Of a stretch of DNA of 34,444 bases, positions 28,064 through 34,433 are shown piece after piece. The notes beneath the pieces are model-generated. The model was given only the letters and a program-made list of their open reading frames with translations. It had not been told where the DNA came from and did not search any database. How positions within the stretch are numbered: position 1 is the stretch's first letter; every line of letters begins with the position of its first letter. A program made the position numbers and the translations under genes. Source of the DNA: Bacteroidales bacterium (GTDB lineage: Bacteria; Bacteroidota; Bacteroidia; Bacteroidales; Muribaculaceae); contig JAQXVL010000098.1 in the NCBI GenBank assembly GCA_029224905.1, positions 1-34,444 on the forward strand, given 5' to 3'.

Positions 28064-28221
28064 CCGTTAACGCTCGGCAATTGTACTGCATCTACTAATA
28101 GCAATTGTCCGGTTATGCGGGTTGCGCCTCCCCCGAGCCGCAGCCCGCTTGCCGTTTCGTAACGGAAAAGCATGAATAATGCAGGTTGCAGAGCCGATGC
28201 AAACGAGGTTGCGACTCGGAC

Positions 28222-28434
28222 ATCCTTATCGTGTCGAAGATACGATGAGGATGAAAAGCCCCGGAGGGGCGCCAATTATGGGTAACGCCGGGTTCAGTGC
28301 CGGAGGCACTTAACCCGGTGAACGACAACTATATAGATTTTCGAACCTCGTGAGAGGTTCGGTTGTGATAACTGATAGGTTCTATAACCTTCTAACCTCG
28401 CGACAGCGCCTTCTAACTGCATCGAAGATGCCGA
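28222..28434 (+). repeat. 213-bp dispersed repeat, copy 3
   Basis: Colinear with 23429-23641, direct orientation; hairpin arms ATCCTTATCGT/ACGATGAGGAT differ compensatorily from copy 2. Confidence 0.9.
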
Positions 28435-28479
28435 ATAACCACGCCGACGGCGTCTACTATCACAAAGATGCCCGAGCTC

Positions 28480-28526
28480 GTCACAAACGCACTGCATTTT
28501 TTCATAAAAAGCAGTACATTTGTGAC
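28480..28526. repeat. Palindrome L flanking the abiE remnant
   Basis: GTCACAAACGCACTGC (28480-28495) / GCAGTACATTTGTGAC (28511-28526), 14/16 pairing; contains TACATTTG (-7-like) on + strand. Confidence 0.8.
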
Positions 28527-28546
28527 AAAAATAATACATTTATTCA

Positions 28547-28600
28547 TTAGGATTCAAATAGACGGGCTTTAACAGACCGCGCATTGCTTGATTCTATCAT
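28547..28600 (-). pseudogene. Remnant of AbiEii-like nucleotidyltransferase toxin: MIESSNARSVKARLFES*
   Basis: ATG overlaps antitoxin stop (ATGA, 28597-28600); SVKARL-type N-terminus resembles AbiEii starts; stop after 17 codons. Confidence 0.6.
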
Positions 28601-29166
28601 AGTTTTACCTGCAATATGGTGTATAGAATATTGTAAACTCTAAGTTGTTTCGCATATTCTGCCAACTTCGATATATTTCTATTCGGCAAACGAAGATAAT
28701 TATCTATAATCTCTACCATAACATCTATACCGATTTTATGTCGATACTTAACAGCATCACACACAGATCTTTCAACATCCGTTATCGTTAGCCTTATACC
28801 TTGGACAACTATTTGCGTCTTGCCAATATCAAGCAATTCCTTACGTTGGTATACAAGCGTAATATCAGGGAATACCGGCAAATATATTTTTCTGCTCCTT
28901 TCAACGGCTACATAGAAAGCGTTAGGTATCTGCGTCGTAAGATTATAATGAGTCCACGCTGAATAAAGGCAAACAATGCCGTCCGGGACTATTGACTCTA
29001 TATCAACAACATTTTCCGTTAGCGCTTCCGGATGTGCGTAAAGCCCGTTTCGGAGACGCACAAGGCGACCTTCTCGAGTTGCCCTAAGTATGCGTCGGTA
29101 CTCGATATTGTTGTTTCGATCGGCTCTTACTATACCATTCTCATTTTGTAGCATCTGTACTTTCAT
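28597..29166 (-). CDS. abiEi: Type IV toxin-antitoxin AbiEi-family antitoxin-like protein
   Basis: N-terminal winged-helix-like region (YRRILRATREGRLVRLRNGLYAHPEAL), SIVPDGIVCLYSAWTHYNLT, and ITDVERSVCDAVKYRHKIGIDVMVEIIDNYL typical of AbiEi-like proteins. Confidence 0.7.
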   Translation of the reverse strand: MKVQMLQNENGIVRADRNNNIEYRRILRATREGRLVRLRNGLYAHPEALTENVVDIESIVPDGIVCLYSAWTHYNLTTQIPNAFYVAVERSRKIYLPVFPDITLVYQRKELLDIGKTQIVVQGIRLTITDVERSVCDAVKYRHKIGIDVMVEIIDNYLRLPNRNISKLAEYAKQLRVYNILYTILQVKL

Positions 29167-29175
29167 TATTTATCC

Positions 29176-29221
29176 GTCACAAAGATACTGCATTTTTCGC
29201 AAAAGGCAGTACGTTTGTGAC
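29176..29221. repeat. Palindrome R upstream of abiEi-like gene, contains its -7 box
   Basis: GTCACAAAGATACTGC (29176-29191) / GCAGTACGTTTGTGAC (29206-29221); minus-strand TATCTTTG at 29180-29187, + strand TACGTTTG. Confidence 0.8.
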
Positions 29222-29318
29222 AAAAAAAAATCACATAGCTTTCGACAAAACCGCACAGCGAACATTGTCGGTTAGCCCCTGCAGTAGGAAAAACCGTGAA
29301 TAATGTAGGTTAACTTAG

Positions 29319-29411: not shown

Positions 29412-29646
29412 TTACCGAAAAACCCGAACAATGTCGTTTTGGCGAAAAATGGCCCTAAAAAAAACACCTTTTGCTCGTTTTGCTGTAATTATATGCCGTA
29501 AATCAAACCATAATGGCATAAACCCAATCATTACAAAATGATGTGTTAGTGTTAAAAAATTGCAAGTAGTAACGCCAACATTCGTTAATCTCAAAAATTT
29601 TGCGTACATTTACCCCGTCATATCGCCGTAATAGGCTTTGTTGACA

Positions 29647-29865
29647 GACATAATTGGAAGCGTTTGGCTTCATTCCATTGCTGTGAATCTCGACACCTCA
29701 CATGTATGTATGGAATGATGAAGAACGCTCCCTCTTGGTGGACGTATATACAACCGTGTATATAGATACCAAGAGCGTGAGCAATCTTTGTTATCTACAT
29801 ACAAGGCAGTCGAGAGCCTACTACGTAGATGCAAAGACCATGTAGGCTCACACTTTCTTTTTATG
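29647..29865 (+). ncRNA. Candidate structured RNA with kissing loops and terminator-like 3' end
   Basis: P1: AGCGTT 29659-64/AACGCT 29724-29, CATTCCA 29671-77/TGGAATG 29711-17, TGTGA 29682-86/TCACA 29698-702. P2: CTCTTGGT 29732-39/ACCAAGAG 29768-75 plus TATATAC/GTGTATA. P3: GTGAGC 29777-82/GCTCAC 29846-51, TCTTTG/CAAAGA, ATCTAC/GTAGAT, AGGC/GCCT. Loop-loop TCTCGAC 29688-94/GTCGAGA 29809-15. T-rich 29854-29862. Confidence 0.75.
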
Positions 29866-29903
29866 CCTTAACCTTATAACTTACAAGCACTGTTTGAGCC
29901 AAA

Positions 29904-30161
29904 GGTGCATTATAAAGATGCATTATGAATGTATCACCTAATTTGATAACGTTGTTTTATGGGAAAAACTCCATAAGGAGGAGATTATACTCTTAATGGA
30001 ACAGAAGGGATTATGAAATATGTTTTAAGCAATGCAAACAAGGTGTTAAGTGCAGTATTGTTGCGTGAATCCATCCGAAAAAAATGGATATGACATGTAA
30101 TATCACTATTGATTCTCTACCACAATAAAACAATAGTGTTAATAAGTAAGCTTTGTTTGCA
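29904..30161 (+). ncRNA. Candidate second structured RNA or structured 5' leader of the zinc-ribbon gene array
   Basis: GGTGCATT/AATG..CACC (29904-29938), TTATGG/CCATAA (29957-29976), ATCCAT/ATGGAT (30069-30089), CACTATTG/CAATAGTG (30104-30138), enclosed by TGCAAACAAGG (30033-43)/CTTTGTTTGCA (30151-61) with one G-U pair. Confidence 0.45.
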
Positions 30162-30294: not shown

Positions 30295-30846
30295 ATGGCA
30301 CTAATAAAATGTACTGAATGTGGGCAAGTGTTTGAAAACCATCTAAAAGAATGCCCGAATTGCGGTTGTCCTGCTAACGAGTGTGTAATTGCAGCAAACC
30401 ATAATGAAACAATAGAAGAAATTGCTGAAGATGATTGTGATTACAAAACAGTTTCTGAATTGTTTTGGTCGTGTCAATTCCACAAGGTATTCAGAGGGAA
30501 ACACTTTGATTTAGGGCAGCGCATATATGAAGTAGGCTCATTGTGGTGGGAGTGTATCAAAGTGTGGTGGAACTGTTGCACTACGAAATTTGCAAAGTTT
30601 GATGGTAGAGCATCAAGGCGCGAGTATTTCTCATTCATCGGTTTGACATTTTTCCCCAATCCGTTTATGATACTTTCCTTGTATCTAATAGTAGGATTTA
30701 TTCCATGGATTGCAGTCAATATTCGCAGAATGCATGATATCGGAAAAAGTGGGTGGTGGATTTTGGTGCCCATTGCCAACATTTTCCTATTATTTAAGCA
30801 GTCCGATAAGGGAGCAAATAAATATGGTTTACCCTCAACAATGTAA
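30295..30846 (+). CDS. Zinc-ribbon protein with DUF805 membrane domain
   Basis: MALIKCTECGQVF...CPNCGCP then FDGRASRREYFSF...RRMHDIGKSGWWILVPIANIFLLF (DUF805 hallmark). Confidence 0.85.
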   Translation: MALIKCTECGQVFENHLKECPNCGCPANECVIAANHNETIEEIAEDDCDYKTVSELFWSCQFHKVFRGKHFDLGQRIYEVGSLWWECIKVWWNCCTTKFAKFDGRASRREYFSFIGLTFFPNPFMILSLYLIVGFIPWIAVNIRRMHDIGKSGWWILVPIANIFLLFKQSDKGANKYGLPSTM

Positions 30847-30858
30847 ATCAAAATTGAT

Positions 30859-31884
30859 ATGGCACTAATCAAATGTACTGAATGTGGGCACATGATTTCG
30901 GACAAGGCGACGAAATGTCCGAAATGTGGATGTCCGACAAAGGTAGAAATGGTACGGCATCAAGAAAATGTCGCAAGAGATATGCCGGTGTGCGATGAAG
31001 AGGTAAGTCATACCAACAAGTGGTTGTATGTGGTCATTGCACTACTCTTGGCGGCAATCGCTGGCGGTGGGTATTGGTGGTACAGTCAATCAAAAGGAGA
31101 CCAAGAAGCCCGACAGCTTGTTGAACAATTCGCTAAAGCTGTTGAAACAGGCGACAACTTGGTCATTCACAATCTATATCCAAACTGCAATGCCGACTCT
31201 CTCGTATTCAAATATGACAAAAACAATATTCAAATAGAAAGAAAAGAAAACGAATGGTTAGTTAAAGAAGCAGATGATGTTGTGCTCATACTTGTTAAAA
31301 ATGAGGATAATACAATCAAAATCAAAGAGTCTTATGGTATCTTTTCTTATCCCGATAGTTTGCTAACGGTTGCAAAGGCAACAGGATGGTATGATAAGAA
31401 TCTCAACGACATACAAAATGCGGAACGCCTATCGGATGGAGGCTTCATTAAATGGTTGAAAGAATATATTAAAAGAACAATAAAAGATAATGTGAAAATC
31501 TCAAAGAAATCCCAATATTTAGATGACAATTTTGATAATGCAATAAACGTATATGCGCATGGATGTGATTTTAAATGTACTCACACCATTACTATCTCCA
31601 ATGAAAATAATTTTGTAATTCCAAGCAAGGATTATTACATTTATGTAGTCCATATAAGCAACGATAATTATGATTATTTTCAAACCAATAAGAGAAGTAT
31701 AGGAGGCAAATCTATTCCCGCTAATGGGACAGTTTCTTATACATGGCAAGACGTACATTTTGAAGGAACATGGAGTTATGAAGATGATGTAATGTTAGAA
31801 TATAACCCATCTTTAGATAAAATGCCCGAATTATCGTTTTTTACTGGAACAGAATATGAAGAGTATGAGTCTTCAAAAAAATGA
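30859..31884 (+). CDS. Zinc-ribbon, single-TM protein with TcaA/NTF2-like extracytoplasmic region
   Basis: MALIKCTECGHMISDKATKCPKCGCP; TM WLYVVIALLLAAIAGGGYWWY; EARQLVEQFAKAVETGDNLVIHNLYP resembles NTF2-like starts. Confidence 0.75.
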   Translation: MALIKCTECGHMISDKATKCPKCGCPTKVEMVRHQENVARDMPVCDEEVSHTNKWLYVVIALLLAAIAGGGYWWYSQSKGDQEARQLVEQFAKAVETGDNLVIHNLYPNCNADSLVFKYDKNNIQIERKENEWLVKEADDVVLILVKNEDNTIKIKESYGIFSYPDSLLTVAKATGWYDKNLNDIQNAERLSDGGFIKWLKEYIKRTIKDNVKISKKSQYLDDNFDNAINVYAHGCDFKCTHTITISNENNFVIPSKDYYIYVVHISNDNYDYFQTNKRSIGGKSIPANGTVSYTWQDVHFEGTWSYEDDVMLEYNPSLDKMPELSFFTGTEYEEYESSKK

Positions 31885-31911
31885 AAAAAGTCAACTATCA
31901 TTTTTTCAAAT

Positions 31912-32769
31912 ATGGCACTAATAAAATGTACTGAATGTGGACACATGATTTCGGACAAAGCGACGAAATGTCCGAAGTGCGGCTGTCCGACAACGAAGGG
32001 ATCGAAACCTCATATTCATCAGGAGACACCGCAGGTTCAACCTTCTTATTATGATGATAAGAATGGCGGAAGTTCTCGCAAGTGGTTGTATGGGATTATT
32101 GGAGTATTGGTGGTTCTGTTGGTAGGGCTTGGATTGTGGATGTGGAATTCGGGAGCGTCTGGTGGTAATGGGCAAGAGGCAAAAATACTATATGATACTA
32201 TTGTGTCAAGTCAAGGACAAGAGAAACTGTCCGAAGATAAATCAGCATACAATACAACAAAGACAGAAAATGGAACAACTTCGGAAGCCCACCAACCTAA
32301 AAAACTAAAAGTTTCAAAAGTGGAATTTAGTCATTGTCTGGCTCCTCAGGCAGGCAATACATACGAACCACGCAATATGTGTGATGGCAACCCCTCTACA
32401 ACATGGGCTGTAGGACTATATAACTACAATCCTTATGTCGATGGTTTTTGGGGACCAATCTTTACATTGAAGTGCAAAAAGCTCTCTCATATAATCATCC
32501 GTAATGGTTACTGTAAGGATAATAACAGCTACAAGAATAATGCAAGGACAACGGGTATCTCTTTCATCAATTTTAAAAACCATGCCCTGTTATACGAGGG
32601 ACTGTTAAAAGACACATCAAAGCCACAACGCTTGGATGTCTTCTCTGATTCCGAAGGGAACAATAATCTTGAGCAAGTGGGTATCTCGTTCTTTGACTAT
32701 GACTTTATCCCTGGTGCAAAATGGAACGACTTGTGTATCTCTGAGGTTGAATTCTGGGGCTATGAGTAA
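31912..32769 (+). CDS. Zinc-ribbon, single-TM protein with discoidin/NADase-type glycan-binding-like domain
   Basis: MALIKCTECGHMISDKATKCPKCGCP; TM WLYGIIGVLVVLLVGLGLWMW; NMCDGNPSTTWAVG...IIIRNGYCKDNNSYKNNAR..SEVEFWGYE. Confidence 0.75.
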   Translation: MALIKCTECGHMISDKATKCPKCGCPTTKGSKPHIHQETPQVQPSYYDDKNGGSSRKWLYGIIGVLVVLLVGLGLWMWNSGASGGNGQEAKILYDTIVSSQGQEKLSEDKSAYNTTKTENGTTSEAHQPKKLKVSKVEFSHCLAPQAGNTYEPRNMCDGNPSTTWAVGLYNYNPYVDGFWGPIFTLKCKKLSHIIIRNGYCKDNNSYKNNARTTGISFINFKNHALLYEGLLKDTSKPQRLDVFSDSEGNNNLEQVGISFFDYDFIPGAKWNDLCISEVEFWGYE

Positions 32770-32795
32770 GAATTGTTATCAATTAATTCGAGATA

Positions 32796-34433
32796 ATGGC
32801 ACTAATTAAATGTACAGAATGTGGGCATGAAGTTTCTGACAAAGCTCAGAGTTGTCCTAATTGCGGATGTCCAATAGGCAATGTTGAAATAATCCAAGAA
32901 GAAATTATTGATGCAGAACCCAAGAAAAGGAAAGGTTGGATTTGGGCATTGGTCGTAGCTTTGCTCTGCCTAATTGGGGGCGGAGGCTACTATGCTTATT
33001 CTCATTTGGTGAACAAAAATAACGCTGAAGATATCGTGGAACTTACTCCCAACTTCATTAAAGCTATTGAAAAGTATGACCAACTTGGTCTGTTCAGTGA
33101 GGGATTGGCCGCAGCCTACAAAGGAGAGAAATGGGGCTATATCAATACCAAAGGTGAAGAAGTGATACCAACCACTATTGAAGCCCAATGTGTTGGTAGA
33201 TTCTCAGAGGGATTGGCATTTGTCTTGACATACGATGGCTTTAATGTGATAGACAAAGAAGGAAAGATTGTTTTCAAAGGTAAATGTTACTTTGATTGCA
33301 TGCACTATGAATGTGAGGAGATGCCATACTATATCAATGGTAAATTGTATGTCCCCATACAAGACGATAAGGGTTATGATTTCAAATATGCAGTTTATGA
33401 TAAACAAGGTAATAAAATCCAAACCACAAGCCTTGCAGAGGGCGAAAAAGTTTATCAAGAAAACCGAAATGGGAAATACTCGATTTTCTCAGAAGAGCAT
33501 CGAGTTACAGAGCAAGGAAACTACAGCACTGTTGGCTTGAAAGATTCTATCGGCAAAGAGGTTTTATCTGCTGACTATATGCTAATCAATGGACTTGCAT
33601 CGGGCACAACCAATTTCAGTAATGGCGTTGTATTAGTAGTCCTGTCAGAGGATATAGATGAAGAAGAGGGATATGAAAATAAAGGCTGCATTGAATTTGA
33701 AGCAACAAGACACTATTATGGCTATGCTGATATGAAAGGCAATGACACTTTTACAGCAGAACAGAAAGAGAGATGCTATGAATCAAAGAAAACCTCATTA
33801 AGAAAAGCGGAGGATAACGAACGTTTAAGGAAGGAAGGTCCAGATTGGTTGCAAGGAGCATGGAGATTAGAGTTGACTGACGACTATGGGAACCATTTAG
33901 GCTATATGTATGAGGTGTTTAATCATGGGTCTTCCAAGTCGTATGTTGATGATGCGTTACTGTATGAACATGATTACACCGTTTCAGATGATATGATAAT
34001 GTATGATAAGGGGCATTATCAATTAGATAATACCCGACAAATAGTTTTGGGGGCTAACGGAAAGGAGATGCAGAAGATTTCAGATGACCCATATTATACG
34101 CCAAATACATCTTCAAGTCAATCTTCAAGCAGTTCATATTCTAATAATAGCAGTTCTTCAAGCAAGGGATATAGATTTTCCTCGCCTCAAGATGTAATAG
34201 GATGGCTTGCTGATAAATCTTTTTTCAATGGTAGCAGACGTTTAAGAATACGCCCCGAAGGTGTATGGCTTAACGACTATTGTGCAACCGGCGCGCCCAA
34301 TGTAGAAAGGTGGGAGTCTTGGAAAGCATTAATACGAGCATATACCGCAACGGGTGAAAGGTTAAGTTTCTTTGTTGATCCTATCAATGGGACTGTTACT
34401 GACGAAACAAGTGATGTTTTCAGACTTAGATAG
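32796..34433 (+). CDS. Zinc-ribbon, single-TM protein with WG repeats and Ser-rich linker
   Basis: MALIKCTECGHEVSDKAQSCPNCGCP; TM WIWALVVALLCLIGGGGYYAY; FSEGLAAAYKGEKWGYINTKGEEVIP / FSEGLAFVLTYDGFNVIDKEGKIVF WG-type repeats; SSSQSSSSSYSNNSSSSS linker. Confidence 0.8.
   Translation: MALIKCTECGHEVSDKAQSCPNCGCPIGNVEIIQEEIIDAEPKKRKGWIWALVVALLCLIGGGGYYAYSHLVNKNNAEDIVELTPNFIKAIEKYDQLGLFSEGLAAAYKGEKWGYINTKGEEVIPTTIEAQCVGRFSEGLAFVLTYDGFNVIDKEGKIVFKGKCYFDCMHYECEEMPYYINGKLYVPIQDDKGYDFKYAVYDKQGNKIQTTSLAEGEKVYQENRNGKYSIFSEEHRVTEQGNYSTVGLKDSIGKEVLSADYMLINGLASGTTNFSNGVVLVVLSEDIDEEEGYENKGCIEFEATRHYYGYADMKGNDTFTAEQKERCYESKKTSLRKAEDNERLRKEGPDWLQGAWRLELTDDYGNHLGYMYEVFNHGSSKSYVDDALLYEHDYTVSDDMIMYDKGHYQLDNTRQIVLGANGKEMQKISDDPYYTPNTSSSQSSSSSYSNNSSSSSKGYRFSSPQDVIGWLADKSFFNGSRRLRIRPEGVWLNDYCATGAPNVERWESWKALIRAYTATGERLSFFVDPINGTVTDETSDVFRLR

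Follow-up and report, generated by a model that had tools for sequence, protein, structure and literature searches.

A Kissing-Loop RNA Family of Bacteroidales, Probably a Two-State Attenuation Switch in mRNA 5′ Leaders

Introduction

Several described systems have features in common with the element reported here. In the antisense control of plasmid R1, CopA and CopT form an extended kissing complex in which a kissing loop and flanking helices join two hairpins around a four-way junction, and in ColE1, RNAI and RNAII meet through 7-nt kissing loops. The put, EAR, and RfaH-ops systems are leaders that precede functionally diverse genes gained by horizontal transfer. Among the candidate RNAs of Bacteroides, the Bacteroides-2 motif is, like our element, not in Rfam; Weinberg et al. 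(2010, PMC2864571) listed it as non-cis-regulatory and as present in a single sequenced organism, a description that would set our element apart from it.

Here, we analyze a 34,444-nt stretch of DNA from a Bacteroidales bacterium (hereafter, the window). An earlier note on this DNA had drawn attention to three hairpins with complementary apical loops and taken them for a compact RNA of about 215 nt. Our analysis makes it probable that they belong to a structured mRNA 5′ leader, which would represent a new RNA family of the Bacteroidales and act in cis as a two-state transcription-attenuation switch.

Results

A folded RNA without a known family. The hairpins P1, P2, and P3 lie where the earlier note had placed them (Table 1), and the perfect 7-bp complement that it saw between the loops of P1 and P3 is borne out. 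Its judgment that this match is unlikely to be due to chance agrees with the occurrence of the two-loop pattern once in the window against an expectation of 0.01, and its claim of a folded RNA is upheld by the stability of the fold relative to dinucleotide shuffles (z = −6.45) and by compensatory change in homologues. Of the checks that it had suggested, the covariation analysis found compensatory changes in both the stems and the loop-loop helix, and the Rfam scan matched no known family: the Rfam 15 covariance models gave no match at or above the gathering score in the whole window or at seven loci of named genomes, and nothing meaningful at E values up to 10 in the window region and the copies from named genomes. 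ARAGORN found no tRNA or tmRNA in the window or at locus L135, the copy of Phocaeicola vulgatus ATCC 8482. A retron or DGR RNA was considered and rejected, as the Pfam matches of the large window open reading frames (ORFs) include no reverse transcriptase. What had escaped the note are two further helices between P1 and P3 (a:a′ and b:b′), additional hairpins on the 5′ side (P0) and the 3′ side (P4), a U-tract, and the ORF into which the element leads.

Table 1. Positions of the element's parts and of the ORFs behind it in the window
Feature	Position	Strand	Description and basis
Promoter-like sequence	29595..29612	+	Two 5-of-6 matches to TAnnTTTG: AAATTTTG 29595-29602, TACATTTA 29605-29612
P0, 5′-terminal hairpin	29617..29645	+	GTCA..TGAC, inner GCC/GGC; folded
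GACATA	29647-29652	+	Conserved single strand after P0
P1	29659..29729	+	P1a (29659-29664:29724-29729) as outer helix; P1c as apical hairpin, bearing the kissing loop
Strand a	29679..29683	+	Partner 29821-29825; covariation
Kissing-loop strand 1, TCTCGAC	29688..29694	+	Pattern scan, covariation
Strand b (TGTATGTA)	29703..29710	+	Partner 29796-29803; swapped-partner test
Ā	29726..29730	+	May join P1a or pair with A at the base of P2; complementarity
P2 hairpin	29732..29775	+	Fold
P3	29777..29851	+	Base helix A:B 29777-29782:29846-29851; P3b; P3c GGC:GCC
Strand b′ (TACATACA)	29796..29803	+	Partner strand b; swapped-partner test
Kissing-loop strand 2, GTCGAGA	29809..29815	+	Pattern scan, covariation
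Strand a′	29821..29825	+	Partner strand a; covariation
B (GGCTCAC)	29845..29851	+	Pairs with A (P3 base) or A′ (P4 loop)
U-tract (TTTCTTTTT)	29854..29862	+	Terminator-like, after A:B
P4 hairpin, GCAC..GTGC	29887..29908	+	Loop presents A′ = TGAGCC 29895-29900
23-codon ORF	29925..29996	+	Family's usual start position; ATG 59 nt past element end
First substantial downstream gene, 183 aa	30295..30846	+	DUF805 match; N-terminal CxxC..CxxC zinc-ribbon-like motif (translation)

Distribution of the family. Among 61 genomes, BLASTN found one clear relative, in genome G020; the short matches in G007, G037, and others are attributed to chance, as no matching structure is present there. A covariance model (R1) built from just these two sequences, the window and G020, recovered matches in 88 of the 397 sampled genomes of the window's family, spread over 17 of 30 genera and reaching five copies per genome, and in 16 other genomes of an order-level set of 295; among the 299 genomes of a phylum-level set, none was found beyond the window's own. 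When GTDB genomes were scanned for the loop-loop pattern, at least 120 stretches matched. Nearly all of them carry the label Bacteroidales or that of a taxon within this order, and those listed include Phocaeicola vulgatus ATCC 8482, P. massiliensis, Bacteroides oleiciplenus, Parabacteroides, Barnesiella, and Prevotella. Two MAGs labelled Clostridium/Clostridia that contain the pattern are probably mislabelled contigs. After removal of duplicates, 166 copies were analyzed, and the homologues (about 166) are Bacteroidales. The window element as a query showed no DNA similarity to phage and plasmid records, and exact loop-loop patterns were not found in viral contigs; a P. vulgatus copy, used as the query, did match two plasmids of Bacteroides finegoldii as well as a segment of a single unannotated phage record. 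The open-access literature yielded no description of the element, and we conclude that the RNA family is real and apparently undescribed.

Covariation joins P1 and P3. When covariation was scanned without bias by a G-test with APC (85 sequences, effective number 68), helix a:a′, which pairs the 5′ strand of P1 (29679-29684) with the 3′ strand of P3 (29820-29825), came out on top, followed by the kissing loop, P3c, P1c, P3b, and A:B. For 36 pairs evaluated on a 100-sequence MAFFT alignment (which, like the model, was built in this analysis), 91.9% of the cells are paired versus 77.6% after shuffling and 30-46% when the partners are slid (43% for a one-column slide); relatedness of the sequences inflates covariation counts but leaves the slid-partner control unaffected. 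In the same 100 sequences, the kissing loop is paired in 99.4% of the cells, with double changes in six of its seven pairs (variants include TCTCGAC/GTCGAGA, TCTGGAC/GTCCAGA, and CTTCGAC/GTCGAAG), and a:a′ in 95.1%, with double changes in all five pairs. Pairing is similarly prevalent in P3c (98.7%) and A:B (97%), and in P1c (93.5%) and P1a (92.5%), which also show double changes. For b:b′, a score of at least 14 was obtained in 87 of 100 copies, as opposed to 7% with swapped partners. These helices, flanking the kissing loop, indicate that P1 and P3 are joined by a loop-loop contact with one helix on each side. P2 is variable among the copies and very short or absent in a few, and the window copy itself is mismatched at two of the five a:a′ pairs (C.A and U.U).

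The minus strand folds about equally stably, and model matches on it occur at the same loci as mirror images of near-palindromic stems. A minus-strand RNA is nevertheless rejected by the ratio of G·U to A·C, by the promoter, and by the position of the ATG. At paired positions, there are 248 G·U versus 67 A·C cells, which points to a fold that acts as RNA and on the plus strand.

Architecture of an mRNA leader. In 147 of 159 copies, as against 8 of 159 in shuffles, a full TAnnTTTG, the Bacteroidota promoter motif, is found upstream at a distance of 16-66 nt; that of the window is degraded relative to most copies. The P0 region has a mean MFE of −11.0 kcal/mol versus −5.6 kcal/mol when shuffled (125 copies), and the U-tract averages 8.1 T in the last 12 nt (166 copies). 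P4 precedes the ATG in most copies, although P4 and A′ are missing or unclear in some clades, and the P4 hairpin of the window is weak (z = −0.73). Among the 155 copies with an ATG ORF on the same strand within 300 nt, 125 have it at 20-130 nt, mostly 30-70 nt beyond the element and with a peak at 40-69 nt. The promoter, U-tract, P4, and ATG spacing together delimit a 5′ leader, some 300 nt long, of an mRNA, a length that is unusual given the median 5′ untranslated region of 32 nt in B. thetaiotaomicron (PMC7366714). Pairing of GACATA with a TATGYC after the U-tract, plausible by eye, proved inconsistent across the copies. In G112, G096, G068, G087, and others, a copy of the B strand, GCTCACA (GTTCACA where B is GGTTCAC), is present upstream of the promoter, well before the element.

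The earlier proposal thus holds as to a folded kissing-loop RNA of no known family but not as to an independent transcript of about 215 nt, because the conserved unit runs from the promoter to the U-tract and usually on through a fourth hairpin, stopping immediately ahead of the start codon. A related alternative is a small RNA of about 250 nt that stands alone and acts in trans, its 3′ end being set by A:B and the U-tract; the ORFs nearby would then be incidental, and several copies in a genome could kiss in trans. Its own promoter and terminator-like 3′ end would suit such an RNA, as would the presence of up to five copies in one genome, yet the sharp peak of ATG distances and the covariation of B with A′, which lies past the U-tract and next to the start codon, speak against it, and we accord it little probability. 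On the sequence evidence, the element is best read as an mRNA 5′ leader rather than a free-standing RNA; a terminated product of about 250 nt may exist as one outcome of attenuation.

Mutually exclusive helices. Strand B has two covarying partners, A and A′, and strand A has two, B and Ā. Complementarity of B and A′ exceeds that of shuffles in 94 copies, and A′ changes together with B (CAGTCTCA/TGAGACTG, AAGACCCCA/TGGGGTCTT, and ATAGCTTCA/TGAAGCTAT). For Ā:A, exemplified by GTCCGCGTCTA/TAGGCGTGGAC in P. vulgatus, at least six of the seven tested pairs form in only about half of the copies. Four mutually exclusive helices, P1a, Ā:A, A:B, and B:A′, thereby fall into two compatible sets, P1a with A:B versus Ā:A with B:A′. 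A:B, being followed by the U-tract, is terminator-like, and the exclusivity of the helices suggests a two-state switch in which A:B and the U-tract would serve as the terminator. The GC-rich hairpin A:B directly before a U-tract inside a leader is the structure of an intrinsic-terminator attenuator. Two features of a riboswitch class are likewise present: a conserved aptamer-like fold with alternative expression-platform pairings, and a place in an mRNA 5′ leader, with the promoter upstream and the ATG mostly 30-70 nt downstream.

In the proposed mechanism, state 1 would have P1a and A:B closed, and A:B followed by the U-tract would end transcription. In state 2, Ā:A, as an extended P2, would hold A so that no terminator forms and the polymerase reads on, with B held by the P4 loop just before the start codon. 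A signal (a ligand, protein, or other RNA) would select the state, probably by stabilizing or breaking the P1-P3 complex, and the kissing complex may belong to one state or both. Each leader would drive whichever accessory gene sits behind it. In nested thermodynamic folding, A pairs with Ā in 89% of the copies and with B in 5%, the window being among the latter; the nested energy gap averages 5.3 kcal/mol in favor of Ā:A, which the long-range helices, with about −9.5 each for the kissing loop and b:b′, could offset in this model. Counting against the switch are the diversity of the genes behind the leader, which have no shared theme, the position of A′ past the U-tract, the gaps in P4 and A′, and the strength of Ā:A in only about half of the copies. 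Since A′ is made after the U-tract, it can have no influence on the decision to terminate and would act on the read-through RNA only.

Genes behind the leader. The first ORFs behind the leader (n = 104) are scattered over many families: outer membrane protein beta-barrels (6), BspA leucine-rich repeats (5), zinc ribbons (3), lipocalins (3), DUF4595 (3), WG repeats (2), radical SAM (2), type II methyltransferases (2), and a C10 protease (1). Such genes have no common theme and hence suggest no ligand; a defense theme was considered and dropped, the matches being scattered. This diversity, with no regulatory theme, is what might be expected if the leader acted on RNA polymerase or on mRNA life for any acquired gene, either as a put/EAR-like processive antitermination RNA or as a stabilizing 5′ structure. 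The closeness of P0 to the inferred 5′ end and the multigene arrays headed by some leaders fit this alternative too. Neither role, however, needs the conserved exclusive pairings or the terminator-like A:B and U-tract, and we regard it as improbable next to an attenuating switch.

In the window (30295-34433) and at loci L044, L046, L049, and L056, the leader is followed by series of short zinc-ribbon proteins, an arrangement thus found in several genomes; some have DUF805, WG repeats, or an NADase-translocation-type domain. The window copy retains P1-P3, the kissing loop, b:b′, A:B, the U-tract, and A′. The ORF at the usual position has just 23 codons and is probably a lost or degenerate gene; the leader here may therefore be without the gene that it once preceded. 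The DUF805 gene starts 430 nt downstream. Elsewhere in the window, positions 28212-28463 form a dispersed repeat, present in the same genome in over 15 additional copies of 79-95% identity and in numerous shorter fragments; this abundance suggests an interspersed repeat or MITE-like element. A 189-aa ORF on the minus strand (28597-29166) is bracketed by a direct repeat of 35 nt (28500-28534 and 29195-29229; 86% identical).

Apparent exchange of genes at a constant leader. Several pairs of orthologous sites have the upstream flank and leader in common and differ in what lies behind. In G295/G279, 1.7 kb is shared up to the end of the leader, and in L133/L173, an identity of 92.8% over 1.1 kb stops at −7, with the limit that some apparent ends of homology may precede a diverged P4, placing the true junction possibly slightly further downstream. 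The same combination of a common flank and leader with different genes is seen in G399/G307, G307/L158, G020/G321, and G111/G269, and contig C32 of G066 has an extra zinc-finger ORF between the leader and the gene that directly follows the leader in G158. In G158:C44/G066:C32 and G020:C33/G321:C186, homology between the blocks of genes that follow the same leader picks up again precisely at a start codon, which looks as if whole ORFs had been exchanged.

Three serine recombinases, one tyrosine recombinase, and DUF3871 served as five queries for genes upstream on the same strand; 17 of 166 copies matched one of them, nearly all of the 17 having a recombinase within about 500 nt; both B. finegoldii plasmids also have a leader copy with a recombinase within about 500 nt. 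Loci at which the leader is preceded, in the same orientation, by a serine or tyrosine recombinase, often with DUF3871 ahead of it, include L125, L192, L156, L150, L135, L173, L133, L176, L175, L130, L172, G111, G269, L264, L265, and others.

These observations bear on whether the element acts as DNA, as a folded single strand or attachment-like site of gene insertion with a role like that of integron attI/attC. Such a site would account for the orthologous loci that keep flank and leader and differ behind them, for the strain with an extra ORF between the leader and a shared gene, and for the recombinase genes upstream and near in some 15 copies and on two plasmids. It is opposed by the excess of G·U over A·C, a mark of selection on a plus-strand RNA, by the conserved promoter and ATG spacing, and by the majority of copies that are without such a recombinase nearby, with no conserved recombination core being identified; we consider it highly improbable. 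A broader proposal retains the RNA: a hitherto undescribed class of pseudoknotted switch, sensing one common signal, would constitute an integron-like platform on Bacteroidales islands, plasmids, and chromosomes, with interchangeable accessory genes placed behind a constant promoter-leader. We advance this only speculatively, as an idea that is rather unlikely to hold in full.

Discussion

The element represents a large and strongly covarying RNA family without an Rfam match that is also present in cultured gut species, among them Phocaeicola vulgatus ATCC 8482. Its architecture is unusual in combining two hairpins, a kissing loop, two flanking helices, and a chain of exclusive pairings. As a kind, we read it as a cis-acting attenuating leader of a new class. 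Should it prove to be a switch, many lipoproteins and surface proteins of gut bacteria, along with some restriction-modification genes, would come under a single signal despite being unrelated. Replacement of the genes that follow a constant leader would add another route to the turnover of accessory genes.

Of the systems described, riboswitches and attenuating leaders resemble it in having a 5′ leader of about 300 nt, a conserved domain of tertiary contacts, alternative helices, and a U-tract before the ORF. Unlike known riboswitches, it has no aptamer match and no metabolic theme downstream, and it shows an additional exclusive pairing, B:A′, past the U-tract. By analogy with CopA-CopT, its two hairpins would be joined by a kissing loop and flanking helices; in contrast to that pair, both partners belong in cis to a single molecule, and covariation shows the stems beneath the loops to be kept as well. 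As in ColE1 RNAI/RNAII, the 7-bp loop-loop helix uses nearly the whole loop, yet here the pairing is intramolecular and within an mRNA leader. Finally, with put, EAR, and RfaH-ops it shares the diversity of the genes behind the leader, whereas its size and structure are different.
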